Of a stretch of 64,000 nt of DNA, positions 33,083-63,448 are shown piece after piece. Source of the DNA: Niabella beijingensis (GTDB lineage Bacteria; Bacteroidota; Bacteroidia; Chitinophagales; Chitinophagaceae); contig NZ_JAIQDI010000001.1 in the NCBI RefSeq assembly GCF_020034665.1, positions 62,001 through 126,000 of the forward strand, written 5' to 3'. How positions within the stretch are numbered: the first letter of the stretch is position 1; each line of letters starts with the position of its first letter. A program made the position numbers and the translations under genes. A model generated the notes under the pieces. The model searched no databases, had not been told where the DNA came from, and worked only from the letters and a program-made list of their open reading frames with translations.

Positions 33083-34186
33083 TTATTTTCCGGCCCGCTT
33101 CAGATCCACCTTCATCAGAAATACATTGTAAGCTTTCCATTCCGACATCAGAAAATAAAGTTGTGTATCACTTTCAAAAGGATAAATAAACGATCCGTAT
33201 AAACCCGGATAGTCCGAAGAGCGGACCACTATTTCCGGGGCACTCCATATTCCCTGAGGTTCGGGAGCATCGCGTAGTACGATCGCCTTCCGGCCCGCAT
33301 CAAGATACAGCATGATCCACCGTTTCAGTTGTTGATTATAGCGTACCGACATTTCCCCTGCGGGCGCTTCCACAACGGGATCCGCCGCGGTTTCTCTTTC
33401 CTTGACCCAACCATTTTTGCTCCAGTATTCATACGCGTTCTTAAAAGCGATCGCCTCTTCCCTTACCCGTAAAAGATAGATGGCACCCTGCCGGCCGGCC
33501 GGTGTGCCGTACAGATAAACAAACCCGTCTTTTTTGGCCAGTGCCGCCTGGGCAAATTTGCTGTCTGCAGTAAAGCGCACGCCGCCGGAGCGCCACGTAT
33601 TTCCCCTGTCTTCAGAAAAAAAGAGCGCGGAATAATTGGTGCGCCATTTTCCCGGCACTTCCCAGCAGTGTATATTCATACAATGAACCACTTCCCTGTT
33701 CCCGGCATGGATGGCCGCAGTGGGTATCATGGTATGATCGCCTTTGCAATCCGGATCGTGGCGGCTCGGGATGATCTCCCGGGCATCTTTGCTTCCCGCA
33801 GCCGTACGCATACTGTCGAAGCGGATCCCGTTGGCAGGCTCCTTATCGGTTGAAAAAGCCAGCACATTGGAACGCCAGCTGCCGGCATTCCCCGGGCCAC
33901 CCGCTCCCGGTTTGAAATCACGGCCATAACTGTCTCCGAAAAAAAGTCCCACGGTACCATCGCCCATTTCCCAGGCAATGCCCAGATCGGTGCCGCCTAC
34001 ATTATAAAAATGATCTGTCCGGTTCGGATTGGGAACCGTATCCGTTGCACGGGCAGCACCGGTAACGCGGGCCACTTTTTTTACAGGACCCGGAATGACC
34101 ACTCCCTGCAGGGTACCTGACTGCCCGTATACTCCCGGGATGCCGCTCAGGACAAGCCCTAACAAAATACATTTCAATGATCGCAT
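33083..34186 (-). CDS. DUF4185 protein, predicted GH183-type endo-D-arabinanase
   Basis: Exported protein of 367 residues. I start at ATG 34186, giving signal peptide MRSLKCILLGLVLSGIPGVYGQ; a start 42 bp upstream would overlap the GH116 gene. The DUF4185 beta-propeller pattern is clear: YNVGGTDLGIAWEMGDGTVG, LFFGDSYGRD, SWRSNVLAFSTD, HTMIPTAA, then MYLDA and GLYGSFIYPF near the end. DUF4185 members were characterised as endo-D-arabinanases and named GH183, so hydrolysis of D-arabinofuranosyl chains is the best prediction. It is the last gene of an aquaporin / G3E GTPase / GH116 / DUF4185 minus-strand operon, 25 bp after GH116. Confidence 0.87.
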   Translation of the reverse strand: MRSLKCILLGLVLSGIPGVYGQSGTLQGVVIPGPVKKVARVTGAARATDTVPNPNRTDHFYNVGGTDLGIAWEMGDGTVGLFFGDSYGRDFKPGAGGPGNAGSWRSNVLAFSTDKEPANGIRFDSMRTAAGSKDAREIIPSRHDPDCKGDHTMIPTAAIHAGNREVVHCMNIHCWEVPGKWRTNYSALFFSEDRGNTWRSGGVRFTADSKFAQAALAKKDGFVYLYGTPAGRQGAIYLLRVREEAIAFKNAYEYWSKNGWVKERETAADPVVEAPAGEMSVRYNQQLKRWIMLYLDAGRKAIVLRDAPEPQGIWSAPEIVVRSSDYPGLYGSFIYPFESDTQLYFLMSEWKAYNVFLMKVDLKRAGK

Positions 34187-34211
34187 CACAAATAATTGTA
34201 CGGGTAATCTC

Positions 34212-36827
34212 CTAGCCGGTAATGGCAATATCTTTCACATCAATGCTGCCATATACCGCCCGTACGCTGGCTTTTTTATTTTTATAGGACACCGTTCCGA
34301 ACCCGGTAGCTGTGGAAATAAAACAGGTAAAATCACCGATCTTTGAATCCACATACAGCTTCTTATCCACGGCATCATACCGCAGGCCGGTAAGTCCCTG
34401 CAGCATACCATAGCTCGACATCGCCCTGGCATACCAGTGACCGCATTCGTATTCGTTGAACGGGTTCCGTACCCTCCCGTTGTACCGGTCGCGGCAGGCA
34501 CGTACAATATCCAGTCCTTCTTTTACCTTCCCCTTCAGCATCAGGTGCGCGGCAACCTGGTATTCGATCCCCGTCCACACTTCATTACTGTACACAAAGG
34601 GCAGCGACAGCTTCCCCCCTTTTGGCCAGGTGCATAATAACAACCCGCCTTCAGTACCGAGGGCATACGAAGGGCGTTGCGGGTTTACATGTCCTTTCAG
34701 ACTTTTCTTTAAATTATATTTATGAACGGCCAGCAGGTGACTGGTGACCTTTTGCTGATTAACAGGGTCCTCCAGTCCGCATACAGAAGCGATCCAGCTT
34801 CCCAGCACCCCATCGGAAAGACAGCCCCTGCCATACTGGTATTTGGGTCCTTCTTTTTTTAATATTTCAACCGCCTCTTTTGAATAATTCCCGCCAAAGG
34901 ACTGGGCTTCGGCCGGGTTTGCGGCTTTCAATCCCTCCCATTGGATCTTCTGGAAGAAGAATTCGCCGTTATACAGGGATGTTTCCAAAAATGCTTTCCC
35001 TTTTTCCAGGAGGGATTTATAGGATGAAACATCTTCCTTCAGATAATCCCCCATGGAAATGATCGATTGCAGTGCCCCCAGGTAAAATGTGGTACACATG
35101 GCATCCGGTCCCCAGAATTCAATATCATAGGTATTATGATGTGGCTCTTCCACCAGGCCCTTCTTTCCCGGATCCCAGGTTTCGATGCAATAATCCAGAC
35201 TGCGTTTTGCCAGCGGGTATATTTTCTTCAGCCAGGTATCATTACCACTGATCCGCCATTCCCGGTAAACCTTCATGATGCCACCCAGCTGACCATCAGC
35301 CGCTGCATGAAAATCATGTTTTACCGGGTTGATCGGCATATTGGCACGAAATGTCTGATGCCCCTGCGCACTCTGGTCTTCGCAAAACTCGGTATTGCGC
35401 AACCCGATCTCCAGCCGTGGGAACAAATGACAGATCGCCTGTGCATAGTTCCACACATGGGTACAGGTTCCGTGGCAGCAGCCCGATTCATCGCTGCAAC
35501 CCTCCCAGGCCCACATACGGCCGTCGTACTGACGCAATACGGTTGGTGATTTTAATATCGTAAGGTTTGCAGCAACGGCTTCGGTCACCTCCGCCGGAAG
35601 TGTGCTGCTGTAAAAGGCATCCTTAAACAATCCGGAATTTTTCCGCAACACTTCATATTGTTGTTTCCAGTAGCCCGCTACTTCCTGTACACTCTTAAAC
35701 TTGGAAGCATACCAGGGTTTATATTTTTCTCCTGTATATTTTTCAAAATTGTCCAGCCCCGACTCCACTGGTGTAATACAGCATTCCGCACTCTTGCAAT
35801 TCTCTTTTCCGTCCGGTCCTTTGTCCTGTATGCGCAGGTCGGATTCAGGAACATACCATGCCATCATTATCCGGATCGTTTTCTGTGCCCCCGGCGCCAG
35901 CTTGAAAGGAATGAATAAGGAAGCCCCCGGGGCATCCCACTCTACTGGTGGAACAGCTTTTGCAGCCCCTGATTCGATGGTATTCCATATCATCGTTACC
36001 GGATCAAACCAGCCACCCCTGAACCAGCAGTGATCGATGACCGGCTTTTGCTCTTCTGTTGTATAAATGGCGAAATCCGTTTTCGTAAACGGCTTATCCT
36101 TTCCTGCTTCCTGAGAAAGTATAAATCCGTTATCCAGCTGTTGTATACGGCCGCGTTCTCCCCTTGCTACAAAGTTCTTTGCGTTATAAGAAAAAACAGC
36201 ATCTATGGTTTTTGAAGATTTGTTTACAAACCGGTATTCCAGGGCACCTGCGGGTAAACCCGAATTGTCTTCATCGCCCGGTATAAAAGGGCTCCAGCCG
36301 GTAAGCTCTACTTTCAGCGGCAGTTCCGGGTCTTCCAGCTGAATGATCCCGAACGGAAATCTTGCCAGAAACGAAGCGCTCCCAAACCGGGGCAATCCAA
36401 AGCTGGTACCGCCGGCACCGTTTCCCGTACCCCGCTGACCAAATACTTTCCATTCGGGTACGGGCCCCTCCAGTACTTTTGCCATTGGCTGGGGCCCTTT
36501 TATACATACCGCTGCAAACATATTGGGCTCAAAGAAAACCTCCGGCCGGTTGTTGATCGACATATGCGATACCGCACCGGAGCCCTCCAGGCAAAACATG
36601 CCGGCTCCAAGTCCGCCGACAGGAAAAGCCACCCGGTTGAGATGGTCTCCTGTGTATATGCCGTTGTACGTTCTTGATGCACCGGGCTGGTCCTTCTCAC
36701 CGGATGACACCGGAACAACGGCATGTTCATCGGGAAGAGCGGCCCCCGCCACTCCTGAGGTCACAGCGGCCAATCCGCTTAATCCAACTTTCTTAAGAAA
36801 CGATCTTCTGCTTTTATAACTGCTCAT
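34212..36827 (-). CDS. GH116 glycosidase with Tat signal
   Basis: 871-residue glycoside hydrolase family 116 enzyme (GBA2-like). A Tat signal (SRRSFLKKVGLSGLAAV) directs export of the folded enzyme. N-terminal beta-sandwich domain (FPVGGLGAGMFCLEGSGAVS, SHMSINNRPE) and an (alpha/alpha)6 domain with CHGTCTHVWNYAQAICHLFP, the highly conserved HNTYDIEFWGPDAMCTTFYL segment that probably holds the general acid, and GCLSDGVLGSWIASVCGL. GH116 contains beta-glucosidases, beta-xylosidases and also an exo-beta-D-arabinofuranosidase; the neighbouring GH183 and GH172 enzymes make the last activity attractive here. It is third in the operon, 32 bp after the GTPase. Confidence 0.92.
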   Translation of the reverse strand: MSSYKSRRSFLKKVGLSGLAAVTSGVAGAALPDEHAVVPVSSGEKDQPGASRTYNGIYTGDHLNRVAFPVGGLGAGMFCLEGSGAVSHMSINNRPEVFFEPNMFAAVCIKGPQPMAKVLEGPVPEWKVFGQRGTGNGAGGTSFGLPRFGSASFLARFPFGIIQLEDPELPLKVELTGWSPFIPGDEDNSGLPAGALEYRFVNKSSKTIDAVFSYNAKNFVARGERGRIQQLDNGFILSQEAGKDKPFTKTDFAIYTTEEQKPVIDHCWFRGGWFDPVTMIWNTIESGAAKAVPPVEWDAPGASLFIPFKLAPGAQKTIRIMMAWYVPESDLRIQDKGPDGKENCKSAECCITPVESGLDNFEKYTGEKYKPWYASKFKSVQEVAGYWKQQYEVLRKNSGLFKDAFYSSTLPAEVTEAVAANLTILKSPTVLRQYDGRMWAWEGCSDESGCCHGTCTHVWNYAQAICHLFPRLEIGLRNTEFCEDQSAQGHQTFRANMPINPVKHDFHAAADGQLGGIMKVYREWRISGNDTWLKKIYPLAKRSLDYCIETWDPGKKGLVEEPHHNTYDIEFWGPDAMCTTFYLGALQSIISMGDYLKEDVSSYKSLLEKGKAFLETSLYNGEFFFQKIQWEGLKAANPAEAQSFGGNYSKEAVEILKKEGPKYQYGRGCLSDGVLGSWIASVCGLEDPVNQQKVTSHLLAVHKYNLKKSLKGHVNPQRPSYALGTEGGLLLCTWPKGGKLSLPFVYSNEVWTGIEYQVAAHLMLKGKVKEGLDIVRACRDRYNGRVRNPFNEYECGHWYARAMSSYGMLQGLTGLRYDAVDKKLYVDSKIGDFTCFISTATGFGTVSYKNKKASVRAVYGSIDVKDIAITG

Positions 36828-36859: not shown

Positions 36860-37963
36860 TCAGGCTACTATATAGCTGTATTTATGTTCGGGCCGGGGAT
36901 AACCCGGGCTTAATGCTTCGCATTGACGGATCTCATAAAACATATCATCGCTTACCGTTTGGGCCAATGCTTCAAAAATCAGCAGCTTCAGTTTTTCCGG
37001 ATCCAGCTCCACCCGTGCATTGATGGTCATTTGCGCTATATTGCCATTTCCCGCAGCCCCGCGGAATTGCATTGTAGAACGCGGACCGGTCTGATTGCCG
37101 ATGATGTATTGCTCTTTCCCGGATTCCAGCATGATCTTAATATGCCCGACTGCGGCACCTTCGCCCAGCAGTCCATTCAATTGAGAAAAATAATTTTTCA
37201 AAAACCGGTCCCAATCAATCCCGGTACCCTGTAATAAAACAGCTGCATTAAGCCATCCTAAAATGGCCTCCCCTTCTGCATAAACCGCATAATCCACCTC
37301 AACGATCCTGCTCCCCGAAACAGCGCTTTCTAAAACATAATCCAGCCATTCTTCCACCCCTTCCCCGCTCTGTGTGCTGATGCCAAGTACCTTTTGATCC
37401 GGAAACATCAGTTTTACTTTTTCCGTTAAAACCAACAGCCGCTCCGGGGTTACCGTATCTGTTTTTGAAACAAGTATCAGATCGCTTTCTTCGAGCTGCT
37501 TGCGGTATATATAGGCAGCCGACGGGTGCATACCGGCATCACCTCCGTCGAGAATCTGTTCCAGTTTTTCCGGATCTGCCAGCACCGTAAAAGGCGCCAT
37601 CTCCACTTCCGCCTGCATCTGGTCCTTCAGCGGTTGCAAAATAGTTGCAGAAATATCCGTACAGCTGCCCACCGGTTCGGCAATAATCACATCAACGGTT
37701 TCCTGGTGATCCATCAGCTCATGAAGTACCTCCACAAATCCATTGTAATTGCAACAAAAACAGCTGCCACTGATTTCTCTGACAATGCTGCTGTCCTTCA
37801 ACAGCAACTGTGTATCCACCAATGCATCTGCCTGGTCGTTGGTGATCAGGCCCACCGTCTTACCACTCTTCGCAATATGCGCGGCTGCCACCTGTAACAG
37901 GGTCGTTTTACCGGCGCCCAGGAACCCGCCCGTAAAAATCAGTTTCGTTTTATTCAGTTTCAT
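36860..37963 (-). CDS. G3E-family GTPase (CobW/HypB/UreG-like)
   Basis: 367-residue SIMIBI GTPase with Walker A GGFLGAGKTTLLQVAA, the G3E metal motif SGSCFCCNYNG (CxCC), Walker B-like IIAEPVGSC, the guanine motif VSKTDTV and a C-terminal CobW-type domain (about 230-367). Such proteins insert or transfer metal ions (Zn, Co, Ni) into client proteins. It starts 14 bp inside the end of the aquaporin gene, so the two are translationally coupled, and is followed by GH116. A metal-trafficking GTPase in a glycan locus is unusual; a client among the neighbouring enzymes is conceivable but unproven. Confidence 0.9.
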   Translation of the reverse strand: MKLNKTKLIFTGGFLGAGKTTLLQVAAAHIAKSGKTVGLITNDQADALVDTQLLLKDSSIVREISGSCFCCNYNGFVEVLHELMDHQETVDVIIAEPVGSCTDISATILQPLKDQMQAEVEMAPFTVLADPEKLEQILDGGDAGMHPSAAYIYRKQLEESDLILVSKTDTVTPERLLVLTEKVKLMFPDQKVLGISTQSGEGVEEWLDYVLESAVSGSRIVEVDYAVYAEGEAILGWLNAAVLLQGTGIDWDRFLKNYFSQLNGLLGEGAAVGHIKIMLESGKEQYIIGNQTGPRSTMQFRGAAGNGNIAQMTINARVELDPEKLKLLIFEALAQTVSDDMFYEIRQCEALSPGYPRPEHKYSYIVA

Positions 37964-38750
37964 ATGTCACTTTTAACCGCGCCTGTAGTTGTTGTTTTAT
38001 ATAAAAATTATAAAGCACTGCCGCCAGTACTGATCCGCATAGCGGTGCCAGGATATATACCCAGAAAAAGCCACCGCGCTCATCCGGGAATGCCGCTGCG
38101 CCCCAGCCCGCAAACCAGGCCACCAGCCGCGGACCGAAATCCCGCGCGGGATTAAAGCCTGCCTGTGTAACAGGGGCAAACAAACAGATCAGGATGGCCA
38201 GCGCAATCCCGATATACAGTATGGCGTATCTGAGCCCGTTCTTTTTGCCGGAGCGCTCATACGTTACAATAAAAATAACGGCGGTCAGTAAAAAAGTGCC
38301 CAGTCCTTCTGCAACCATCGCCTGCCAGACCGGGTAGGGACGGTAAAACTCCCCGAACATGCGGGCCGTAGCGAGGGATTCCGGTGCGCCCCTCAGGAGC
38401 TGATGTGTGGTTTCGTATGTTTTTATAGAAGCACCCAGTATGCTATACAACAGAAAAGCCGCTGCTGCGGCACCCGTAAATTGGGCCAGGAAATACAGCG
38501 GCAGTTTTCGCCGGTGAAACTTTCCCGTAACGGCCATTGCGATACTTACTGCCGGATTGAAGTGCGCGGCACATACAGACCGGACCGTCCAGATCGCGAT
38601 CATTACCGCAGCCCCCCACACTACTGCAATGGCAACAATATTCGGGGGCCAGTTAAATAAAACGGACACCCCCACAGCACCACATCCCAGGAAAACAAGG
38701 ATAAAGGTACCGGCGGCCTCGCCAAGGAATTCATTAAATGAACCTTTCAT
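37950..38750 (-). CDS. MIP-family aquaporin / glycerol facilitator-like channel
   Basis: Inner-membrane channel of 266 residues with six transmembrane helices and both NPA half-helix motifs: HFNPAVSIAMAV and GFNPARDFGPRL. The Asp after the second NPAR is the mark of the aquaglyceroporin (GlpF) subgroup rather than strict water channels, so passage of glycerol or other small polyols is expected. No glycerol kinase is next to it. It is the first gene of the operon with the G3E GTPase, GH116 and DUF4185; a palindrome matching the proposed LacI operator lies 23 bp before its start. Uptake of a polyol or sugar released from the glycan (for example arabinitol) is a speculation. Confidence 0.93.
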   Translation of the reverse strand: MKGSFNEFLGEAAGTFILVFLGCGAVGVSVLFNWPPNIVAIAVVWGAAVMIAIWTVRSVCAAHFNPAVSIAMAVTGKFHRRKLPLYFLAQFTGAAAAAFLLYSILGASIKTYETTHQLLRGAPESLATARMFGEFYRPYPVWQAMVAEGLGTFLLTAVIFIVTYERSGKKNGLRYAILYIGIALAILICLFAPVTQAGFNPARDFGPRLVAWFAGWGAAAFPDERGGFFWVYILAPLCGSVLAAVLYNFYIKQQLQARLKVTYETE

Positions 38751-38772
38751 ACGACATGGTTTCTATGCTAAT

Positions 38773-38784
38773 TTAATCGATTAA
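38773..38784. promoter_or_regulatory. Proposed LacI operator upstream of the aquaporin operon
   Basis: TTAATCGATTAA is a perfect 12-bp palindrome around the central CG that is shared with sites at 44440, 53557, 53605, 60063 and 63456. It lies 23 bp upstream of the aquaporin ATG. No matching -7 box was found here. Confidence 0.55.
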
Positions 38785-38897
38785 GTTAAGAAGTGTGGTA
38801 CTTTTTAAGTTGTTTTTTCCCGTTCCTGAAGCTCCGGTCACAGTGAGCAGCAGCCTACCCTGCGGTCACGGGTATTTTTAATACAAAGTCTATCTGG

Positions 38898-39332
38898 TTA
38901 TTCATCAAAAGCGACCGTTTGACCGGGAGAATAAACCTCTCCGGAATAATTGGGATCTTTTCTTACCGTAGTGCCTTTTATTTTTACAGTGATGTGGTAT
39001 TTCCTCTTTGCATCCGGATCCTCCAGTGGTTTATCCGGTACCTCATAGGTAAATGTTGTCGGAGCATTGTCCAGGGTAGTGCTAAAGGGTGAAAAACTGG
39101 CCAGGCTCGGCTGGATCTCTTTTACCAGAATGAACACACTGACTGGTTGCTCAATGCTCTCCGGCAACGCCGGAATGTTCCAGGTCAGTTTCATCGTGGA
39201 ATCCGTCAGCTTTTGCAATGTCAGATTTTCTACAGGAGGCAGACTTATGCTTCCTTCTTTCCGGTCTGTAATTTCTCTTTTATTACAGGCCACCAGTAAA
39301 AAAAAGCAACCAGCAAAAATAAATGCTTTCAT
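38898..39332 (-). CDS. Small surface lipoprotein, fibronectin-like fold, of the SusC/SusD operon
   Basis: 144-residue lipoprotein: MKAFIFAGCFFLLVACNKRE with the lipidated Cys at about residue 17. A beta-sandwich domain follows (LPPVENLTLQKLTDSTMKLT ... FILVKEIQPS ... KYHITVKIKG), like fibronectin III or DUF4945-type modules seen after SusD in glycan loci. An upstream in-frame extension of 79 residues overlaps the SusD gene and is not real. It lies 11 bp after SusD, so it completes a SusC-SusD-lipoprotein unit. A glycan-binding or spacer role is inferred from position. Confidence 0.75.
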   Translation of the reverse strand: MKAFIFAGCFFLLVACNKREITDRKEGSISLPPVENLTLQKLTDSTMKLTWNIPALPESIEQPVSVFILVKEIQPSLASFSPFSTTLDNAPTTFTYEVPDKPLEDPDAKRKYHITVKIKGTTVRKDPNYSGEVYSPGQTVAFDE

Positions 39333-39343
39333 AATCGATCGTT

Positions 39344-41107
39344 TTAATATCCGGGATTTTGTTTGTAACCACCATGCGACCAGTTCATCTGGGGCTGCGG
39401 AATGGGCAGGTATTCGTCTCTTCCGGCAGTAAAATGCGCCTGACCGAACCAGTCGAAACGTCCCCGTTCTTTTGCAAAATGCGCATTCATCACCGGTTCC
39501 AGCTGGCCCCAGCGCATCAGGTCGAAAAAACGCCGTCCCTCGCAGGCCGTTTCCAGCCGGTTCTCCCACATCAGGGCATTCCAGGCGAAATCCTTATTCC
39601 AGGTACAGTTTACGCCAGGCTGATAAAGTGCCACATGGTATTTCATCCAGTAAGTACCATCCGGTTTTTTCAATCTGCTGGTGCTTTTGGCAGCACGCTC
39701 TCTTACCCGGTTGATTAACTGTAATGCACCCATCAAATTCCCTTGCTGGATCAGGATCTCCGCTTTCCACAACAACACTTCCGAATAGCGGATCACTTTC
39801 TCATTTAAACTATTGTAGGTATAGAACGGTTTGTACAGGCAATTACAATTAGGTTCCACCTGTTCTTTTTTTGAATTAAAAAATCCATACTGGAACGGAG
39901 ACCGGGAACCACCTTCTTCATACAGGATACTGTTATCGTACTTCCAGGGATATCCCGGAATGGAAGCCGTATGACTAAGCCGCGGATCAAAATCATGCGT
40001 CTTAAAATAGTTGATATAGGCTTCATTTTTCAGCTCTGTATTGTTATAGTTCACAAAATCGGGCAGTCCATTCCCATCGGTTTTAAATGCATTGATCAGC
40101 GTATGGGTCACCTTATGGAAGTCGCAGCAGGGGAACTTCCCGGCCCACCAGGGGGCATTCAGTTCATTGCCGATATTTGTCATTCCTCCTGTCCATTCGT
40201 GCACCCCGCTGTTAGAGATCGAATACTGCAACTCCCAGATCGATTCCTTTGTTGTATTATCATAATCCACGATATAATTTTCCGCAAAATCGGGTTGCAG
40301 GTCAAACAGCGCACCATCCTTAGCAGTGATCACATTGATATGCTCCAGGGCCCGGTTCAATGTGCCCTGGTTGATATTGACAACCTGGTGCCGGTCGTTC
40401 TGCTCGTAAGCCCTGAACAACAACGCTTTGGCGGCCAGCGCATGGGCAGCATATTTTGTAGGGCGCCCCACATCCTGCTGATTATCCGGTAAAACATTGG
40501 CAGCGTATTCCAGATCTTCTATAATCTTGTCCCAAAGCCCCAGATCATTCTTCATGGAATCCGGGCGGTTGGAAATGCCTTCCACCATCACAGCATCTTC
40601 CGGGGTCGTTTCATCGATCCAGGGAATGTATTTCCAGCGCAGTTTCATTCCCAGGTAGATCCATCCCCTCACAAATCGCATTTCTGCGATGCGCTGCGGT
40701 TTTGTCGGAAGCGCTGTTTCATCCAGTTGCTCCAGCCTGCGCAGCGCTATATTGGTCCTGCTGACTCCGCTATAGCCTCTGTACCAGGGTCCGTCATTGT
40801 TGCCTACATTCGGCGTCAACAGCGTAAAGATCTCCATCTCATGCCAGGGTACCTGGTCATTCAAACCGCCGCCACCTTTATAGGAATCGTCCGATCGTAC
40901 ATCCTGTATCCAGGGGTTGTGCGTATCGCCGTATCCCAGGGTTGGCATATAAGCATAGGCCGCAATCACGAACTTCTCGGCATCTGCTGGAGTTGTTATT
41001 TGGGATTCAGACAACACTCCCTTGGGATTTACATCCAGAAAGCCTTTGCAGGAAGCTCCCGTCAACATAATGACCGCAAGCGCATAATAAATTTTATATT
41101 GTTTCAT
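39344..41107 (-). CDS. SusD/RagB-type glycan-binding lipoprotein
   Basis: About 587 residues. The ATG at 41107 is followed by a lipoprotein signal (MKQYKIYYALAVIMLTGASC). SusD/RagB pattern: GFLDVNPKGVLSESQITTPA, MRFVRGWIYLGMKLRWKYIP, then VIRYSEVLLWKAEILIQQGN and ETACEGRRFFDLMRW typical of the C-terminal TPR region. It lies 14 bp after SusC on the minus strand, the usual order. It would bind released oligosaccharides at the cell surface. Confidence 0.95.
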   Translation of the reverse strand: MKQYKIYYALAVIMLTGASCKGFLDVNPKGVLSESQITTPADAEKFVIAAYAYMPTLGYGDTHNPWIQDVRSDDSYKGGGGLNDQVPWHEMEIFTLLTPNVGNNDGPWYRGYSGVSRTNIALRRLEQLDETALPTKPQRIAEMRFVRGWIYLGMKLRWKYIPWIDETTPEDAVMVEGISNRPDSMKNDLGLWDKIIEDLEYAANVLPDNQQDVGRPTKYAAHALAAKALLFRAYEQNDRHQVVNINQGTLNRALEHINVITAKDGALFDLQPDFAENYIVDYDNTTKESIWELQYSISNSGVHEWTGGMTNIGNELNAPWWAGKFPCCDFHKVTHTLINAFKTDGNGLPDFVNYNNTELKNEAYINYFKTHDFDPRLSHTASIPGYPWKYDNSILYEEGGSRSPFQYGFFNSKKEQVEPNCNCLYKPFYTYNSLNEKVIRYSEVLLWKAEILIQQGNLMGALQLINRVRERAAKSTSRLKKPDGTYWMKYHVALYQPGVNCTWNKDFAWNALMWENRLETACEGRRFFDLMRWGQLEPVMNAHFAKERGRFDWFGQAHFTAGRDEYLPIPQPQMNWSHGGYKQNPGY

Positions 41108-41121
41108 AATGAACATGCATT

Positions 41122-48558: not shown

Positions 48559-48587
48559 TGATGTATTTTTTAAAAATGAACACCTGT

Positions 48588-53604: not shown

Positions 53605-53620
53605 GTTTAATCGTTTAAGC
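53605..53620. promoter_or_regulatory. Proposed LacI operator, distal copy before SusC (53554)
   Basis: GTTTAATCGTTTAAGC, same central CG and arms as the sites at 44440, 60063 and 63456. On the minus strand it follows a weak -7-like TCCGGTTG in the same relative position as in the other promoters. Confidence 0.6.
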
Positions 53621-55394: not shown

Positions 55395-55685
55395 ATTAAA
55401 TAGGTAGATTGAATGAAACTTTTTTTTTATACCGTGACGAACTTTTATCAAAAAACGGAACAGCAGGTGTACCGGACGCAGCAACCGGAACAATAAACGG
55501 TATAGCGCAGTTGAAGCCGACTGGCACCGGCAGCAAGAAAGTTATTCCATTTTTCATTGACATTCCCGATCGTTCTTTTAAAAGTTTATCAGCCGGTAAA
55601 ATACATATTTTTTGCAGAAACCCTACTTCAGGAACAATATCGGATACAAAAAGGTGAATATTGTTTACTCCCCCAAGCCACACTT

Positions 55686-57473
55686 CTACCGGTACAGCGG
55701 GCCGTACACCGCGCAGGCCCTGTAATCAGATCCTTCAGGATCCATTCCGTAGGCGCCCCATGCGGAAGGACGGAAGATCTTCTCTTCCGCAACATTGTGC
55801 ATAGCCACCGGTATGCGCAACATGGACGCTAAGGTGATCAGCTGATCGCCGATATGCCCGTAACTGATGGCACCGTGGTTGGCCCCCCAGTTGGCCATTA
55901 CTGCATAAACATCCTTAAAAGGGCCGCTGCCCGTAAGGTTGGGCACAAACCAGGTGGTTGGCCAGATCCGGTCGGTACGTTCATTCAAAATATCATGCAC
56001 CTGTGTAGGCAGGTCGATCGTATACCCTTCTGCGATCTGCAATACCGGCCCCTGCCCTTTTATCAAATTCAGCCGGCACATGGTTACCGGCATATCTCCT
56101 TTTGTAAGAAAGGTAGAGGAATAACCGCCACCCCGCATATAATCGCGGTTGGAGGGGCTCCAGGTAGTAGCTGCCAGACAAGCGGCTGCTTCCTTTTCGC
56201 TGATCTCCCAGTAAGGTTTCATGACAGGTTTGCCATTCCTGCTTTGCCGTCCTGTTCCATCCAGTGTGGCGGAGCCGGAATTGATCAGATGGATAAACCC
56301 GTTTTCCGCTCTTCCTTCGGGCTTCCATCCGGATACCCGCTCGGTAGCCTGCGGACTCCAGTAAGTACGCACATCCGCAAAGATCTGCGCCGTATTGGTA
56401 AGCAGGTAATTGAACAGCATCGATACCCCGTTGTAGCAATCGTTTTCGGTAGCCACCATATAGGGATTGCGGATGCCGTTCCAGTCGAATGAGGAATTGA
56501 GCAACGCTTCCGAAAAATCGCCATCGGGCAGGAAGTCGGTCCACTGCCGCTGTCCCTGGAAACCGGAGACCAGCGCCTGATGTCCCTGGGCTTCTTCTGC
56601 AAATCCCATGGTTTTCAGCCGGGGATTACCGATCATCAGGTCACGGATGATCATGGTCATCTTTACCACAAACTCCCAGTCCTTATCTTTTTCCCTGCGG
56701 CTCTTTATCTTTTCCTTACGATTGTAGTCCTTCCCTTCCCTGCAGTTCTTCTTCACCCAGCTGATCGCTTTTTTAAACTCTGCAGCATCAAAGATATTCA
56801 GCTGGATCCGTCTCAGGATCTCAGAAGAATCCACGTACTCGTTGCGCATCCCCAGGTATTCCTGGAAGAACTGCGGATCCACGATCGAGCCGGCGATCCC
56901 CATCGAAACAGATCCGATTGCCAGATAGGACTGGCCCTTCATCAGCGCCACTACCAGTCCGGCCTTTGCGAACTGCAATAATTTTTCCTGTACATCACCA
57001 GGTATGGAAGTATCTCCCATATCCTGCACATCCTGCCCGTAAATCCCGAAGCAGGGCAGTCCTTTCTGATTATGCGCCGCCAGTGTTGCTGCCAGGTATA
57101 CCGCACCGGGCCGCTCTGTACCGTTGAAGCCCCAGATCGCTTTGGGAATGTCCGGGTTCATATCCATTGTTTCCGAGCCATAACACCAGCAAGGTGTTAC
57201 CGACAGCGAAAGCCCTACATTAGCAGCTGCAAATTTTGTTGCGCAATCCGCAGCTTCCTTTACCCCACCGATACAGGTATCAGCGATGATACACTCCACG
57301 GGCGTACCGTCCGGATATTTCAGTTGCTTCGAATAGAATGCAGCCACCGCTTTTGCCATTCCCATCGTGGTTGCTTCCAGCGATTCCCTGATCCCTCCCA
57401 GCCGGCCGTCAATGATCGGACGGATACCGATGCGGGGGTACTGATTCTTTTTTGATTTATCTTTTACTCGCAT
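55686..57473 (-). CDS. fucI: L-fucose / D-arabinose isomerase (FucI family)
   Basis: Cytoplasmic Mn-dependent ketol isomerase, 595 residues, close to the E. coli length of 591. Conserved motifs: [20 protein letters not shown] at the N-terminus, [40 protein letters not shown] followed by the metal-binding acidic region, and the C-terminal [21 protein letters not shown]-fucose and D-arabinose share configuration at C2-C4, and FucI is the D-arabinose isomerase of E. coli. In this locus no fucosidase, fuculokinase or fuculose aldolase is seen, but D-arabinan-type glycosidases are, so conversion of D-arabinose to D-ribulose is the better prediction. Confidence 0.93.
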
Positions 57474-57520: not shown

Positions 57521-58783
57521 TTATTTAAAAGCTTTCGCGATCTCATCCACAGAAACGCCCAGCACCTTCTGAGCGATGCTGTTCAACCCTTCTTTCGCTC
57601 CGGTAAAATGATACACATTATGGCGATGCGTAAGGGCCGTGCCCGGTTTCAGAAATGCCGCAGGAGATACACTCTCGATCTCATAGAACGGCCCCATTTG
57701 TTTGCCATCGGCCAGGGGGCCGTCATTATAAGCATTCATCGCATCCCCGCTGAACGGAGGGCGGTCGGTACGCCATTCCTGGTTGAGGTATTTGCCGGCC
57801 GGGTCGATATCGTACCTTACAATGGTCAGCACATTACCAATGGCATCATAACTGCCCGCTACATTTTTTACACGGCCCGGCGGAATGCCCAGTTTGCCCC
57901 TGGACTTACCATCTGCTTTAAAAAACAGCAGCCCGTTGGAAAAATGGATGCGGCCTTTGGGGATCTCCCCGAAATAATCCGTAGTGGCCACTTTTCCGGA
58001 AGCGCCGTCGTTATACGGGATCACAATCGTACAGCCTTCAGAAGGCGTGAACATATCCAGGTTCCACATACAGGGAGCACCGGTCTTTTCATCCCATGCC
58101 TGCGTGCCGCTATTGGTAATGCTGTTCACCGTCTGGAACGCAACGGATTTAATTCCTTCTGCCGGGGCCACGCCCAGGTCTGAAGCGATGGCCTCCTTAC
58201 CGATCAGGGTTACCTGGCGGGCAGCTTTTATCTGCAGCTGTGTACCTGCATAATTCAGAAGATTCATTTCTTTACTCATGGATACAGAAGAAGCATCGGA
58301 AGCATCCAGCTTCCAGGGTTCTGTATCGATGGATGCAGGCGTCTTCCAGTTCTCAAACTCCATCTTCGCTCCCGGCCTGAAGTACAGCGAGAACAAACCA
58401 CCCTCCGGCCCCAGCCATAGCCGGTCTTCTCCGCCATAGGCGTTCATGTGCGCATCTTCCGGTCCTTCAAATGCCTTGTAGTTCACCCATCCAAAGCTTT
58501 TACCTGCCGGTCCGTCGGCAGAAGAGGTAAATACTTTTGCCTGGTACCGGGGCGAAACAATGACCTGACTGGCTCCGTCGGCACTTTTAAGCACGATCAG
58601 CCCGCTGTCCTTCTGCTGAAGAAAATGCACATCATATCCAAAACTTCCGGGCGCATGATCAGTCATAGTATCAGTTGTTTGTGCCGAATCCGATGAGGCA
58701 GCCGGTGTTTTTGTGCCTCCGTTACAGGAGCACAACAATACGCCGGCGGCCAGCACCGGGAATAGCTGATTTTTCAGTTTCAT
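57521..58783 (-). CDS. Exported lipoprotein with mutarotase-like (DUF6786-type) fold
   Basis: 420 residues with lipoprotein signal MKLKNQLFPVLAAGVLLCSC. The body looks like a galactose-mutarotase-type beta-sandwich: GGEDRLWLGPEGGLFSLYFR, NSGTQAWDEKTGAPCMWNLD, MFTPSEGCTIVIPYN, and YEIESVSPAAFLKPGTALTHRHNVYHF. I place it as DUF6786-like with moderate confidence. A role in interconverting anomers of the released sugar in the periplasm is inferred. It lies between GH172 (78 bp) and fucI (47 bp) in one minus-strand unit. Confidence 0.75.
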   Translation of the reverse strand: MKLKNQLFPVLAAGVLLCSCNGGTKTPAASSDSAQTTDTMTDHAPGSFGYDVHFLQQKDSGLIVLKSADGASQVIVSPRYQAKVFTSSADGPAGKSFGWVNYKAFEGPEDAHMNAYGGEDRLWLGPEGGLFSLYFRPGAKMEFENWKTPASIDTEPWKLDASDASSVSMSKEMNLLNYAGTQLQIKAARQVTLIGKEAIASDLGVAPAEGIKSVAFQTVNSITNSGTQAWDEKTGAPCMWNLDMFTPSEGCTIVIPYNDGASGKVATTDYFGEIPKGRIHFSNGLLFFKADGKSRGKLGIPPGRVKNVAGSYDAIGNVLTIVRYDIDPAGKYLNQEWRTDRPPFSGDAMNAYNDGPLADGKQMGPFYEIESVSPAAFLKPGTALTHRHNVYHFTGAKEGLNSIAQKVLGVSVDEIAKAFK

Positions 58784-58861: not shown

Positions 58862-60025
58862 TCAGTTCACTTCCAGTATATCCATTTCGGGAAGTTTGGG
58901 AAATTTTTTATGCGGTTCGGTCTGGTACCAGTAGGCCACGGTTATTATATCAGAATGCTGTGGAAGGTACCTTCCGCCCGACTTCCAGCCCAGATCCTGG
59001 ATGGTCACTTTAAGATCCTTGTCGAAGCGGATCGGGTCCATGATGTGCCAGCGGTACATTCCAAACCGCATCTGCGATCCGTACATCCCGTCCGGTCGCA
59101 ATACCTGATGCAGTCCTGCGTAAGCAGTGGAGAACTCCTGGTACTGCCGGGTACGTTTGTTCTCAAAATTATAGGAGCCGCAGAAATAATCTTCGGTACC
59201 GGTACCCACAATGGTGGCATAATCATCATCCCCATCCATAAAGAATTTGATCTCGCCTTCACCCCACCAGCCATTATTGGTAACACCTACACCCATATAG
59301 GTACCCACATACTGCCCCTTTCCTTTTACACCATCGAGGATGGTATGCAGTGATCCCATATTGGGTTTGCTGCGGCGGTACTGCGCATGAAAATAACCCT
59401 CATCCGGTCCAACATCCGTCAGGGTATAATCCACCTGATAATACAGGCGCATGGGTTGCGAATCGAGATTCTGCATCGTGATCTTACAGTTTTTCCGGAA
59501 CGGCATTTTCCAGTAGCTGTTAAACGCGCTTCCGGGGTTAACCGTCATTGCCAGCGAATTCAGTGGAGAAAATTCATTCCATCCGATACCAAAGAACGGG
59601 CCCACCGGGCTCTCTACCGAAGGATCGGCTTCCCCGTCATAATAGATCCGGAAAATGGAAAAATTAAAATTCCCTGTCGGGGTCATCCAGATATGCTGAA
59701 CGGCACCCGGACCGGCTATATCTGCCATGGTAAAGGTTTCGCCGGGCTCTATGATTATAAAAGGATTTACTTTCCAGCCTTTACCCAGATCCCGGGCTTC
59801 ATTGGCGGCGTTGGCCACATTGCGTTTTCCTTTATCCCGCACCGGGTCGGCCATTCCCCCCTTCGCTTTTTCCCCTGTGAAATTCTCGGGACTGATGGAG
59901 CGGGTTTTAGCATCGGAAAGACGCGATAGATTTCCAAGGCTCATATCGAGCCCGTTGAATTTCTCCTGTGCGAAGCCCGAATAAAAGGCGATTGACAGTA
60001 ACAACAGGAATCCAATTTTTTTCAT
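58862..60025 (-). CDS. DUF2961 (GH172) glycosidase
   Basis: Exported 387-residue enzyme (start ATG 60025; signal MKKIGFLLLLSIAFYSGFAQ). DUF2961 pattern: VNPFIIIEPGETFTMADIAG, GPGAVQHIWMTPTG, then GWWGEGEIKFFMDGDDDY and the hallmark GTGTEDYFCGSYNF. The two Glu residues in those motifs match the catalytic pair reported for GH172. GH172 members cleave alpha-D-arabinofuranosides and alpha-D-fructofuranosides. It is the first gene of GH172-mutarotase-like-FucI-FucP and has a promoter overlapped by the proposed LacI operator, so exo-alpha-D-arabinofuranosidase is the favoured role. Confidence 0.9.
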   Translation of the reverse strand: MKKIGFLLLLSIAFYSGFAQEKFNGLDMSLGNLSRLSDAKTRSISPENFTGEKAKGGMADPVRDKGKRNVANAANEARDLGKGWKVNPFIIIEPGETFTMADIAGPGAVQHIWMTPTGNFNFSIFRIYYDGEADPSVESPVGPFFGIGWNEFSPLNSLAMTVNPGSAFNSYWKMPFRKNCKITMQNLDSQPMRLYYQVDYTLTDVGPDEGYFHAQYRRSKPNMGSLHTILDGVKGKGQYVGTYMGVGVTNNGWWGEGEIKFFMDGDDDYATIVGTGTEDYFCGSYNFENKRTRQYQEFSTAYAGLHQVLRPDGMYGSQMRFGMYRWHIMDPIRFDKDLKVTIQDLGWKSGGRYLPQHSDIITVAYWYQTEPHKKFPKLPEMDILEVN

Positions 60026-60062
60026 ACAGACTTTTTTAAACAATGAACAATCGTGACAGTAA

Positions 60063-60109
60063 GCTTATACGTTTAAGCAAAAATAAAGTGTTTGTTTTTA
60101 TTTACCAAT
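60063..60109 (-). promoter_or_regulatory. Promoter with overlapping LacI-type operator upstream of GH172 (60025)
   Basis: Minus strand: -33 ATTG (60109-60106, one mismatch), 20-bp spacer, exact -7 TATTTTTG (60085-60078). The palindrome GCTTATACGTTTAAGC (60063-60078), 14 of 16 positions symmetric, begins at the last base of the -7 box. Confidence 0.75.
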
Positions 60110-60300: not shown

Positions 60301-61362
60301 TTACCTGCGATCAACACCGTCCCTGGATTTCCGGCGGTTGCTGCTCTCTCCTTTTATAATGATGGATGGCACTGTTATCTTAGCAGGTTTTTTGCTCCGC
60401 GCATCGATCGACTGCATCAGCGACTGAACCGCATTTTCGCTGATGGCCTGAAGATTCTGCTTTATATAGGTTATAGAAGAGTAAAAGAAATCGAATACAT
60501 CACTTTCATCAAAACTGATCACGCCAAGATCCTGCGGTACCCGGATCCCTTTTGCATGGATCACCTTAAGCGACTGCACCGAGATGCTGTTGGTAGCAAA
60601 TACCAGCGAATCCACCACCCGGTTCCTAGGGTCCAGCAGGCGTTCCAGCGCACCGGTCACATGTTCCTTGTAATTTCCATAAGGCACTTTTGCAAACCAC
60701 CGGGAATTGAACCGGATGCCGTTGTCCTTTAGCGCATCCTTATAGCCCGCCACCCGGTCGATCATATGGGTCAGTGTGGTATCGTAGGCGATAATGCCTG
60801 GTTTTTTATATCCATTCCTGATCAGCAGTTTCACTGCATTGTACATCGCATCGTGGTTGTCGGTAACCACCACATTGGTTTCGATCTCATGAAACCCGCG
60901 GTCCATCAGTACAAACGGAATACCTTTATTACGGAGCTCTTCGATCTGCGATTGTGAGCCGGCTACCGGGGTAATGATGAGGCCGTCTACCTGGCGGTTG
61001 AGAAAGGTGCTGATAAGGTTCTGCGATTTTTCCAGCTGTTCATCGCTGCTGCCGAACAAAACCGTATATCCCCGCTGTTGTGCCTCCAGCTCTATGATCC
61101 GTGCCAGCATGGCAAAGAAGGGATTCGAGATATCAGCAACGATCAAACCGATGGTATGTGTTTTCCCGAATTTCAGCCCCCGGGCAATCAGGTTGGGCTG
61201 GTAGTTCAGATCAGCAGCTACTTTCCGTATTTTCTTCGCGGCGGCTTCTCCTACCCGGGCCTCTTTTTCCTTTCCGTTCAGCACATAAGAAACCAGGGCA
61301 GTGGACACTCCTACTTTCTGGGCAATATCTTTAAGTGATACTCTTTTCTTTATCATCCGCAT
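60301..61362 (-). CDS. LacI-family transcriptional regulator
   Basis: 353 residues: N-terminal lambda-type helix-turn-helix and hinge (VSLKDIAQKVGVSTALVSYV, then NYQPNLIARGLKFGKTHTIG) and a periplasmic-binding-protein-like sugar domain (LIVADISNPFFAMLARIIEL, VVTDNHDAMYNAVKLLIRNG, GVISFDESDVFDFFYSSITY). Lies between two GH172 genes inside the large minus-strand locus. The palindromic sites with central CG before five neighbouring transcription units are the typical LacI operator type, so this is probably the repressor or activator of the whole locus; the ligand is likely the locus's sugar or a phosphate of it. No such site was seen before its own gene. Confidence 0.93.
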   Translation of the reverse strand: MRMIKKRVSLKDIAQKVGVSTALVSYVLNGKEKEARVGEAAAKKIRKVAADLNYQPNLIARGLKFGKTHTIGLIVADISNPFFAMLARIIELEAQQRGYTVLFGSSDEQLEKSQNLISTFLNRQVDGLIITPVAGSQSQIEELRNKGIPFVLMDRGFHEIETNVVVTDNHDAMYNAVKLLIRNGYKKPGIIAYDTTLTHMIDRVAGYKDALKDNGIRFNSRWFAKVPYGNYKEHVTGALERLLDPRNRVVDSLVFATNSISVQSLKVIHAKGIRVPQDLGVISFDESDVFDFFYSSITYIKQNLQAISENAVQSLMQSIDARSKKPAKITVPSIIIKGESSNRRKSRDGVDRR

Positions 61363-61506: not shown

Positions 61507-61519
61507 GCTTCCTGCCGCT

Positions 61520-63448
61520 TTAATGTGCCGGTTCTTTCACCAGCAGTACCCGGTCGAATTTAAGATCAGGGTGTGGCTCCCCGCTCCGGAAAAGAAGGTT
61601 TACCGGGATGCTGCCATCCGTTATGGTTACACGGCCCAGTTCCAGATCCCCGGGTGCCGCTGAAAGCAGCACCTGCTGCCAGTTCCGGCCCCCTGCTGCG
61701 CCGGAAAGACATACTTCCAGCTTTCCGGCAGTGGCTTCTACAGCATGCAGGAAGACCCGGTAGGTTCCCTTCGGGATCTCTGAAACATTTATATTCAGAC
61801 TCGCATTGGAACTCCCCTGCAATACGGCAACGCCTTCCTTTAGTTCCAGGTTGCCGTTATAGGTCAGCTGTTGCATCAGCCGGGTATAGAAGGTAACGGT
61901 GTCGGGGATAAATACAGTTGTAAGCGCATTAACCGGAACGGTAACGGGGGCAACCGGCCGTTCTGCATAATACAGCGCCACCGAAATATACTGAACCGCC
62001 CGGTTATTGTTTTCGGGACCATGCTCGATCGTATGACGGATCTCCTTATAAAACGGCATTTTGTCCGACAGGAAAAAACGGTACCCGCCGGTCCTTCCCA
62101 GGGGCAGGGTATAATCCAGGCAGCCGCTTAAAGGAGCGCCCAGGCGTTCTACCCAGCCACCGGGCTGGGCATACCAGCCCCCGTTAAAATAATCTTCAGA
62201 ACCCGTTCCATGCGCCGTCATCACGCCATCGATCTCGGTACGGTCATCCCCTTCAAAAAATTCGGTGAAATGGGTTGCATCTGTAGCCTGTCCCTGCAGC
62301 AAGGTGCCTATATAATGGCCCTTCCCCCGGCCTTCCAAAAAAACATAGGGACTTCCCTGCTGAGGTTGTTCATTTTTCCAGAAGGCATAGAAGCGTCCTT
62401 CTTTCACCACATCTCTTTTTTGACGGGTATAAAAAACCTTTGCAGTAAGTGCAACGGGTACAGCCGCTGCGCCTTCTCGGTACACCAGCTCGATTGTTGC
62501 ACGCTGGTCAAAGGGCATGGGCAGATAGCTGTAAGCCTTTACCGGCGTGGCTCCCAGGAACAGGCTTTCCATGGAACGCGCGCCATAGGCGAATCCAAAA
62601 AAATCCGCTACCGGCATATATACTGCAGGAAACGCTTCATTATCCCAGGTAATCTTCAGATCGATCTGTTTGTGCAGGCCGCTGAAAGCAGCTGCCGGCA
62701 TCAGTTCAATACCGACAATCCTTCCGCCCTGCCGCAGATCAGCCAATTTGGCCACTGCACCGGGTTTCAGCAGCAACTCATGGGAAACTGTTTCCGGATC
62801 TACAGGATACCACTGCTGTATATCGCGGTTTTCATTGCTCCAAAGTGCAGCCGTCCGGTTCAAAAGGGCTTCTTCATTTTTTGTAAACCGGTTCCGGAAC
62901 GTTTCCACGCGGTAGCGCTGATCATAGGTGCGGTACTGGATCTGGTGAAACAGGATCTTCGGTCCCCGGAAAACGATCTTGCATCCCTGTTTGTAAGGGA
63001 TGGGGACATAGCTGTAAAATCCGCCTACCTTATGATCCGCAAGCGGTTTCAGGAATGGGAATACGGTGTTATTGAACAGGTCCCTGAATTTTATGGACAA
63101 TGCCGGACTTATGCTTCCGTCAAAATAAAAATCCAGCGTGTCATCCGTTGGTGTTGGTGTCCAGATCCGTTCGATAACACCCTGCCCTTTCTCATCAAAA
63201 ATGACCAGCCCGCCGGCCTCTTTCCGGATGTAGGAATAGTTTCCCCCAAAACCATCATTATTGCCTCCCGTAGTGTCATAGGAAGAGATTTGTTTTACCA
63301 GTGTTCCCTCAGTAAATTGAGGCCAGGCACTAAGATTTGTAAGACGCTCCAGGGATGAAGTAAAGGAGACCGGTTGCTGGCCGTAGGATGATACACTCCA
63401 GAACAACAGTAAAACGGCAGCGAAAGATTTGGGAAGGATTGCTTTCAT
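61520..63448 (-). CDS. Second DUF2961 (GH172) glycosidase with C-terminal carbohydrate-binding-like region
   Basis: 642-residue exported protein with signal peptide (KSFAAVLLLFWSVSSYG). DUF2961 domain from about 30 to 440: SWKTPTPTDDTLDFYFDG-like VIERIWTPTPTDDTLDFYFD, LPLADHKVGGFYSYVPIPY-type segment and HGTGSEDYFNGGWY. The region before that motif reads HFTEFFEGDDRTEIDG rather than the GEGE...FFMDGD seen in the other GH172, so the nucleophile is less clear. The last 100 residues (NASLNINVSEIPKGTYRVFL) form a beta-sandwich. Own promoter with operator 9-55 bp upstream of the ATG. Likely another D-arabinofuranoside-acting enzyme with different linkage specificity. Confidence 0.87.
   Translation of the reverse strand: MKAILPKSFAAVLLLFWSVSSYGQQPVSFTSSLERLTNLSAWPQFTEGTLVKQISSYDTTGGNNDGFGGNYSYIRKEAGGLVIFDEKGQGVIERIWTPTPTDDTLDFYFDGSISPALSIKFRDLFNNTVFPFLKPLADHKVGGFYSYVPIPYKQGCKIVFRGPKILFHQIQYRTYDQRYRVETFRNRFTKNEEALLNRTAALWSNENRDIQQWYPVDPETVSHELLLKPGAVAKLADLRQGGRIVGIELMPAAAFSGLHKQIDLKITWDNEAFPAVYMPVADFFGFAYGARSMESLFLGATPVKAYSYLPMPFDQRATIELVYREGAAAVPVALTAKVFYTRQKRDVVKEGRFYAFWKNEQPQQGSPYVFLEGRGKGHYIGTLLQGQATDATHFTEFFEGDDRTEIDGVMTAHGTGSEDYFNGGWYAQPGGWVERLGAPLSGCLDYTLPLGRTGGYRFFLSDKMPFYKEIRHTIEHGPENNNRAVQYISVALYYAERPVAPVTVPVNALTTVFIPDTVTFYTRLMQQLTYNGNLELKEGVAVLQGSSNASLNINVSEIPKGTYRVFLHAVEATAGKLEVCLSGAAGGRNWQQVLLSAAPGDLELGRVTITDGSIPVNLLFRSGEPHPDLKFDRVLLVKEPAH

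Follow-up and report, generated by a model that had tools for sequence, protein, structure and literature searches.

Which polysaccharide is served by a locus that combines predicted arabinanases with a fucose-type permease and isomerase is the question raised by a stretch of the Niabella beijingensis genome (6.59 Mb, three contigs), namely bases 62001–126000 of its first contig, 64,000 nucleotides in all and hereafter called the window. The locus, at window positions 33083–63448, holds 18 genes, all on the minus strand and mostly tightly spaced, with GH183, GH172 and SusC/SusD genes among them. We consider it highly probable that this is a polysaccharide utilization locus (PUL) for D-arabinofuranan, governed by a LacI-family regulator and leading into catabolism by FucP and FucI. 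D-Arabinan itself is best known from the cell walls of mycobacteria and their kin.

Families (Pfam on the window proteins, and NCBIfam), key residues, gene order, operators and folds were computed. Statements on published work refer to the portions of text cited, including the further background passages PMC8605356, PMC8939339, PMC5964476, PMC9671496 and PMC6946681. Dedicated D-arabinanase genes were identified only in 2023 (PMC10115798, PMC10509167), and the D-arabinan PUL as a type is already known; the new points here are the regulon, a β-N-acetylgalactosaminidase (β-GalNAcase), and a mutarotase-like component.

Glycoside hydrolases predicted to act on D-arabinofuranose

The GH183 (DUF4185) protein aligns D81, D99 and E292 with the two catalytic aspartates and the supporting glutamate of EndoMA1 (D33, D51 and E243), and it also keeps the EndoMA1 residues W138, P141, R198, L292 and Y293, i.e., eight of the eight residues compared, whose roles are taken from PMC10509167. 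Its signal peptide, recognized by eye, lies downstream of an internal Met. The specificity of the GH172 and GH116 proteins was judged by best match and key residues. GH172a has ExoMA1 (8ic8) as its best solved match, ahead of 8ah3 (D. gadei DG02479; 145 bits, 2.4e-41), 4kq7 (134 bits, 6.3e-38), and αFFase1, the fourth-best (115.4 bits, 2.8e-32). Its N292 corresponds in the alignment to N253 of ExoMA1, the residue that bars the hydroxymethyl group of fructose from the GH172 site (PMC10509167).

The GH116 protein matches ExoMA2 (8ic6), with the next chain at 2.6e-10. Its N terminus, RRSFLKK, is presumably of the Tat type, as judged by eye. In the alignment, E442, H457, R494 and D568 coincide with E431, H446, R483 and D557 of ExoMA2, of which E431 and D557 are catalytic and H446 and R483 recognize the substrate (the numbering of the chain runs four ahead of that of the paper, and after this shift all four residues fall on the correct letter), whereas β-glucosidase has Asp and His where ExoMA2 has His and Arg (PMC10509167). 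Because of these best matches and of the residues kept relative to EndoMA1, ExoMA1 and ExoMA2, endo-α-, exo-α- and exo-β-D-arabinofuranosidase activities are predicted for GH183, GH172a and GH116, respectively. Placement in fructofuranosidase or β-glucosidase clades, named by an earlier, sequence-only reading as the outcome that would speak against D-arabinan, did not occur by best match and key residues, with GH172b alone lacking the diagnostic Asn. The subfamily of GH43 was sought by sequence comparison and none was reached, the protein having 3kst as its nearest solved chain and being 69–81% identical to the GH43 in four other Niabella loci.

Two published systems resemble the locus. PUL42 of Dysgonomonas gadei (Al-Jourani et al. 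2023, PMC10115798) shares GH172, GH183, a GH116 gene, and FucI with it, and comprises three GH172 and two GH183 genes together with the GH116 gene named in PMC10509167, whereas the Niabella locus has one GH183, two GH172, a GH123 β-GalNAcase, an MIP channel, and a CobW-type GTPase. FucI was the abundant isomerase of D. gadei grown on D-arabinan, and GH183 enzymes, including those of D. gadei, act on arabinogalactan (PMC10115798). The cluster of Microbacterium arabinogalactanolyticum (Shimokawa et al. 2023, PMC10509167) shares GH183, GH172 (ExoMA1), GH116 (ExoMA2), and an isomerase, the match extending to single residues, but has an ATP-binding cassette importer and a kinase, whereas the Niabella locus has SusC/SusD, FucP and LacI and lacks a kinase. 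No paper on a Niabella D-arabinan locus (GH183, GH172, DUF6786, arabinogalactan) turned up in the open-licence literature.

Related loci and a shared operator

An alignment of 18 GH183 proteins led to 199 confirmed stretches in named genomes; retaining the 80 best of them gave 79 distinct loci. Searched by tblastn with the window proteins (E-value cut-off 1e-15), these hold relatives of GH172a in 29 loci, GH172b in 28 (the two matches can be one and the same gene), DUF6786 in 22, GH116 in 19, FucI in 18, LacI in 16, FucP in 13, GH43 in 7, CobW in 4, MIP and DUF4945 in 3 each, and the BT_3987-like protein in 2; because the views span at most about 21 kb, a gene absent from one may lie outside it. 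The set of GH183 with GH172, GH116, FucI and DUF6786 recurs over the Bacteroidota. In the four other Niabella loci (L011–L014, from N. pedocola, a Niabella metagenome-assembled genome (MAG), N. aurantiaca, and N. drilacis), the order is the same, namely LacI, GH172a, DUF6786, FucI, FucP, SusC2, SusD2, the BT_3987-like gene, and GH43, with CobW, GH116 and GH183 on the other side and CobW adjoining GH116/GH183 in all four. GH172b and MIP are each present in three of these loci and SusC1 in two, and a second GH183 occurs in N. aurantiaca and N. drilacis. The idea that CobW and MIP generally belong to D-arabinan loci was rejected, because within the 79 loci the tblastn matches for them are confined to Niabella.

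Two protein clusters recur in these views. The first (c8, about 700 residues) is found in 14 of the 79 loci, including L011–L014 (e.g., L013:2928–5021), and has no match in the present genome; the one example scanned has no Pfam-A match, some relatives carry precomputed GH88 or GH127 matches, and its predicted model (mean predicted local distance difference test score 82.7) contains a barrel of helices that partially matches a polysaccharide lyase, GH76, and sugar epimerases. The second (c10, about 355 residues, with an apparent signal sequence) is a recurrent neighbour of GH172 or GH183, seen in 12 of the 79 loci (L029, L035, L036, L046, L065, and seven others), and the one example scanned matches neither Pfam nor NCBIfam.

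The locus is further tied together by five operator sites, placed 7 to 129 bp before SusC1, SusC2, GH172a, GH172b and MIP, which mark its transcription units, are conserved in relatives, and are presumed to be bound by the LacI protein of the locus. A search for CG-centred palindromes alone did not yield the operator, but a mismatch search from one site did: queried with the GH172a site at up to three mismatches, the window gives six matches, five of them in the locus, versus a mean of 0.68 and a maximum of 3 in 100 shuffles, and the MIP site was recovered separately from this query. The exact palindrome RYTTAWWCGWWTAARY has five sites in the whole genome, four in the locus and the fifth, at C2:666812, 8 bp before an unlinked GH43 gene with a ricin-type lectin domain (L128:9337–10806, on contig C2). 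With one mismatch or fewer, the stretch from C1:100771 to C1:133540 has 7 of the 24 genomic sites, among them the four exact ones of the locus.

The operator precedes both SusC2 and GH172a in all four other Niabella loci. Over 14 loci of relatives (258,725 bases), 29 sites lie within two mismatches of RYTTAATCGWTTAARY, versus 1.4 in mononucleotide shuffles, 28 of them upstream of a recognized gene of the locus and the remaining one within FucP; neither L014 nor L120 has a site at this threshold. The 79 GH183 loci (1.51 Mb) contain 12 exact sites, versus a total of one over ten order-1 Markov simulations, and each of the 12 is upstream of a gene or no more than 61 bases away from where that gene was called to start. 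Outside the genus these exact sites are found before GH183 in two Pedobacter loci (L023, L025), twice before GH172a in Muricauda (L029), and at the GH172a start in a Sphingobacteriales MAG (L042), and in the Niabella MAG locus L036 one precedes an unclassified gene heading a LacI–GH172 cluster. A set of 44 loci set aside as controls (852,059 bases) contains 11 sites that are exact or differ at one position, and it is not clean as a control: three precede GH123, five fall in L023, L025 and L029, and three in L129 and L130, which are stretches of the present genome chosen because they hold near-matching sites.

The motif TANNTTTG, which we take to be the Bacteroidota −7 promoter box, ends on the first base of the operator at 11 of 34 sites, versus about 0.0003 per position, and the other 23 lack it there; counted without overlap with the operator, the box is found at 3 of the 34. 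The count of 11 came from a second look, made once the overlap had been noticed, and the 34 sites include many orthologues of one another. A box that meets the operator in this way would be compatible with repression by steric hindrance at the promoter. The LacI protein is 87–90% identical in L103–L106, and its highest NCBIfam score, which stays below cut-off, is with a model of a fructose-responsive regulator.

The unit probably runs beyond the end of the window, where the SusC of a third SusC/SusD pair (L112, C1:123000–142000) is preceded, at a distance of 272 bp, by an operator with one mismatch. This pair is accompanied by two DUF-type, probably glycan-binding, proteins, with a fourth SusC/SusD pair next to it. 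On the opposite side, another SusC/SusD-like pair, following a ROK-family gene on the plus strand (28163–33012), abuts the locus, and no operator was seen shortly before it. Farther off, at 9057–10736, the window encodes a peptide-N-glycosidase F protein with a PNGase F-II N-terminal domain.

All the families listed by the sequence-only reading, namely GH183, GH116, two GH172, GH43, two SusC/SusD sets, FucI, FucP and LacI, were found at the place and on the strand it gave them (Table 1). The gene that it had labelled DUF4091 turned out to match GH123_cat, and to its list must be added DUF6786, the MIP channel, the CobW-type GTPase, DUF4945, and the BT_3987-like protein.

Table 1. Genes and operator sites of the locus (window coordinates)
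Feature	Position	Strand	Matches and remarks
GH183 (DUF4185), predicted endo-D-arabinanase	33083..34228	-	PF13810 3.2e-104, 348.9 bits; EndoMA1 8hhv 6.9e-65
GH116, predicted exo-β-D-arabinofuranosidase	34212..36827	-	Pfam DUF608 4e-56, Glyco_hydr_116N 1e-39; ExoMA2 8ic6 9.8e-108
CobW-type (COG0523-like) GTPase	36860..37963	-	PF02492 1.5e-24; six NCBIfam matches, all below cut-offs
MIP family (aquaporin/glycerol facilitator) channel	37950..38750	-	PF00230 2.3e-39; TIGR00861 161.2 bits, below cut-off 171.25
LacI-type operator ATTTAATCGATTAAGT	38771..38786	.	20 bp before MIP start codon; also before MIP in L011, L012, L013
DUF4945 protein	38898..39569	-	PF16303 1.6e-31, residues 95-220; true start probably internal, open reading frame overlaps SusD1
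SusD-like glycan-binding lipoprotein 1	39344..41116	-	PF07980, PF14322
SusC-like TonB-dependent transporter 1	41122..44310	-	PF07715, PF00593, PF13715
Possible second operator copy, 1 mismatch	44248..44263	.	inside SusC1 5' end
LacI-type operator GCTTAATCGTTTAAAC	44440..44455	.	129 bp before SusC1; TACATTTG ends on its first base
GH123-type β-GalNAcase, NaNga orthologue	44519..46204	-	PF13320 9.7e-79; 8p4l/8q8h E=0
GH43, lipoprotein by eye	46246..47307	-	PF04616 1.1e-45; 3kst 1.3e-72
BT_3987-like N-terminal-domain protein, probable surface glycan-binding protein	47335..48594	-	PF08522 3.4e-17; role suggested by position after SusD
SusD-like 2	48588..50378	-	PF07980 3.7e-57
SusC-like 2	50390..53554	-	PF07715, PF13715
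LacI-type operator GTTTAATCGTTTAAGC	53605..53620	.	50 bp before SusC2
FucP-type sugar:H+ symporter, predicted D-arabinose permease	54102..55493	-	NCBIfam TIGR00885 4.4e-81, 273.2 bits, just below cut-off 280.4
FucI, L-fucose/D-arabinose isomerase	55686..57473	-	three domains 1.6e-48 to 2.3e-94; 3a9r 'D-arabinose isomerase' 1.9e-288
DUF6786, lipoprotein by eye, galactose-mutarotase-like fold	57521..58783	-	
GH172a, predicted exo-α-D-arabinofuranosidase, ExoMA1 type	58862..60043	-	DUF2961 1.8e-88; ExoMA1 8ic8 1.4e-110, 373.3 bits
LacI-type operator GCTTATACGTTTAAGC	60063..60078	.	19 bp before GH172a; TATTTTTG ends on its first base
LacI-family regulator	60301..61362	-	PF00356 and Peripla_BP domains
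GH172b, long GH172, 642 aa	61520..63448	-	PF11175 2.2e-54; 4kq7 1.4e-24
LacI-type operator ACTTAATCGTTAAAGC, 1 mismatch	63456..63471	.	7 bp before GH172b; TATCTTTG ends on its first base

A β-GalNAcase, a mutarotase-like protein, and a proposed D-arabinose route

The GH123 gene, which follows GH43 in the SusC2–SusD2 operon after a gap of 41 bp, has a GH123_cat domain and a close homologue in the solved β-N-acetylgalactosaminidase of N. aurantiaca, NaNga (8p4l and 8q8h, 1064.6 and 1062.4 bits). Three of the four other Niabella genomes hold copies 78–80% identical, all unlinked to the D-arabinan locus (more than 200 kb away on the same contig in one genome, on other contigs in two), and the N. 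drilacis genome has no close copy, only a 28% identical relative. In N. aurantiaca, NaNga lies away from the D-arabinan locus, among three GH172-family genes, a GH43-type gene, an esterase, and others. Each of the three unlinked genes has a one-mismatch operator 28–31 bp before its start codon; these amount to at most two independent cases, because two of the three share the letters of the site and seem closely related to each other; elsewhere, one-mismatch sites occur no more often than expected by chance. From the position in the SusC2 operon here and the operators before the unlinked copies, NaNga is likely a member of the D-arabinan system. Its natural substrate had not been identified, and arabinogalactan had been suggested, according to the passage in PMC11087588 (citing Moreno Prieto et al. 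2023, FEBS J). Mycobacterial arabinogalactan, to judge from the title of another reference, carries its galactosamine in α-linkage.

DUF6786, of which one copy was found in the genome, encodes a product that has a galactose-mutarotase-like fold, shared with GalM and hexose-6-phosphate mutarotase, from which it differs by an identity of 8–15% (fold comparison) and by the lack of an invariant His in an alignment of 43 sequences; E370, H386 and H392 are nearly invariant, the comparison with GalM, whose catalytic residues are His and Glu, being one of fold. In 14 DUF6786 loci from unselected genomes (stretches of 15–16.5 kb; the fragmentary match L127, which would be a fifteenth, gave nothing and is not counted), a GH172a-type gene is present in 6, a FucP-type gene in 7, and FucI in 2. 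The protein is a candidate that probably helps, as a mutarotase-like component, between the glycosidases and the permease.

The onward route is not kept complete within the locus by every known D-arabinan PUL. An FGGY kinase of one cluster occurs in 10 of the 79 GH183 loci, and one example scores above cut-off for ribulokinase models. The genome has eight FGGY-family matches, the closest relative of those ten kinases (46–54% identical to them) being AraB in an araA-araD-araB operon, in which a class II aldolase gene is read as araD; this unlinked AraB is the most likely candidate for the D-ribulose kinase. A different arrangement was seen in six GH183 loci of ruminant-gut Bacteroidales/Bacteroidia (L065, L067, L068, L069, L076, L085; three nearly identical), which have a ribokinase-like PfkB kinase together with an arabinose-5-phosphate-isomerase-type SIS isomerase of about 200 residues (NCBIfam, below cut-offs), and in whose views FucI was not seen, though it may lie elsewhere. 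Because the kinase and SIS isomerase stand in the place of FucI, a kinase-first route from D-arabinose through D-arabinose 5-phosphate to D-ribulose 5-phosphate is suggested for these loci; no kinase-first D-arabinan locus of this type turned up in a literature search.

Competing readings and a proposed mechanism

Several observations weigh against the D-arabinan reading. Many GH183 loci, most of the Pedobacter ones included, are without the rest of the set by tblastn, and GH183 is present in none of the 14 other DUF6786 loci of unselected genomes, so that a strict tie of DUF6786 to GH183 was rejected. GH172b, like all eight members of its cluster, has Tyr at the position of ExoMA1 N253; it is therefore counted as GH172 but not as ExoMA1 type, and may be the counterpart of the D. 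gadei GH172 with one and a half domains, which has weak activity (PMC10115798). Pfam reveals no D-ribulose kinase among the 18 genes, which leaves the route from D-arabinose to D-ribulose 5-phosphate incomplete within the locus, and FucI may serve L-fucose too, because it is the sole match in the genome, in which 12 GH29-family matches lie elsewhere. With one mismatch allowed, the operator has 24 sites genome-wide versus 27 for a reversed control, which makes lone one-mismatch sites weak. No galactofuranosidase or mannosidase was recognized among the locus genes (with GH43 unplaced), and a β-GalNAcase does not fit the α-linked galactosamine of mycobacterial arabinogalactan. The comparison with PUL42 was made through the text of the published papers.

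The observations on galactofuranosidase, mannosidase and β-GalNAcase bear on which D-arabinan is meant. The sequence-only reading had named mycobacterial arabinogalactan or lipoarabinomannan (LAM) as the natural substrate; its D-arabinan part is supported by the residues of GH183, GH172a and GH116, the gene order in Niabella, and the published loci with the same enzyme families, whereas the mycobacterial part has to contend with the observations just mentioned, and arabinogalactan or LAM is a likely target, though other candidates exist. A sub-case of the D-arabinan reading, which overlaps with it in probability and which we regard as a serious contender although short of an even chance, is another D-arabinofuranose glycan, i.e., a wall or O-antigen polysaccharide of other bacteria bearing N-acetylgalactosamine (GalNAc). 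The NaNga-type gene in the SusC2–SusD2 operon, the operators before its three unlinked copies, the α-linkage of the mycobacterial galactosamine, and the occurrence of α-D-arabinofuranose (α-D-Araf) in Pseudomonas pilins and Stenotrophomonas O-antigens speak for it; the action of GH183 enzymes on arabinogalactan, the further modified decoration that corynebacterial arabinogalactan may bear, and the chance that GH123 serves a minor side chain speak against it. That SusC2, SusD2, GH43 and GH123 form a GalNAc unit merely adjacent to an unrelated D-arabinan unit (GH183, GH116, GH172, FucI) seems improbable: GH123 does lie apart from the locus in three of the other Niabella genomes, and the fourth lacks a close copy, but SusC2, SusD2 and GH43 are kept in the locus in all four, with an operator before SusC2 as before GH172a.

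The two readings on other sugars were rejected on key residues and gene content. An L-fucose system (for fucan or fucosylated glycans) is very unlikely, even though FucI and FucP are named for fucose and FucI is the only copy in a genome with 12 GH29-family genes, for GH183, GH172a and GH116 match D-Araf enzymes down to key residues, and in D. gadei the isomerase found in abundance on D-arabinan was FucI (PMC10115798). The sequence-only reading had argued from the lack of a fucosidase, fuculokinase and fuculose-phosphate aldolase; none is present among the 18 genes by Pfam, yet because of the GH29-family genes elsewhere the missing fucosidase is weak evidence against fucose. Slighter still are the prospects of a fructan or difructose-anhydride locus built around GH172 α-D-fructofuranosidases: although GH172 was founded on αFFase1, which acts on α-D-fructofuranose, and the top-scoring regulator model is the fructose-responsive one, GH172a has Asn at the position that blocks this sugar and αFFase1 only as its fourth-best match, no GH32 is among the 18 genes, and GH183 and FucI would have no place.

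For the D-arabinofuranan PUL, we infer from the computed features the enzyme activities, the inducer, the order of steps, the parts played by DUF6786 and the kinase, and the binding of LacI to the operators, as follows. GH183 would cleave inside α-D-arabinan chains, and the SusC/SusD pairs with the surface-binding protein would import the D-arabinofuranan fragments; GH172a, with GH172b, would remove α-D-Araf ends and GH116 β-D-Araf ends, while GH43 and the β-GalNAcase would strip substituents or side chains. The freed D-arabinofuranose would pass into a form compatible with the permease, probably aided by DUF6786; FucP would then import D-arabinose, FucI would isomerize it to D-ribulose, and an unlinked kinase, most likely AraB, would phosphorylate the latter. 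LacI would repress the units by binding the palindrome over or next to their promoters and be released on a sugar signal.

A bolder form of this scheme, which we advance tentatively and think rather unlikely as a whole, holds that the Niabella target is a D-arabinan bearing β-GalNAc, with NaNga as its side-chain enzyme, DUF6786 as a D-arabinose mutarotase, and the LacI regulon extending across Chitinophagales, Sphingobacteriales and Flavobacteriales, the orders of Niabella, Pedobacter and Muricauda, respectively. If true, β-GalNAc would be a decoration of D-arabinan for which no report was found. The operator link gives NaNga, a β-GalNAcase whose natural substrate is reported as unidentified, a biological setting, and DUF6786 can now be examined as a candidate for the step from glycosidase to permease. 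The type strain N. aurantiaca DSM 17617 (L013/L105), in which the gene order of the locus is the same, lends itself to immediate growth and induction experiments, and the operator offers a sequence tag with which unlinked members of the D-arabinan system may be sought.

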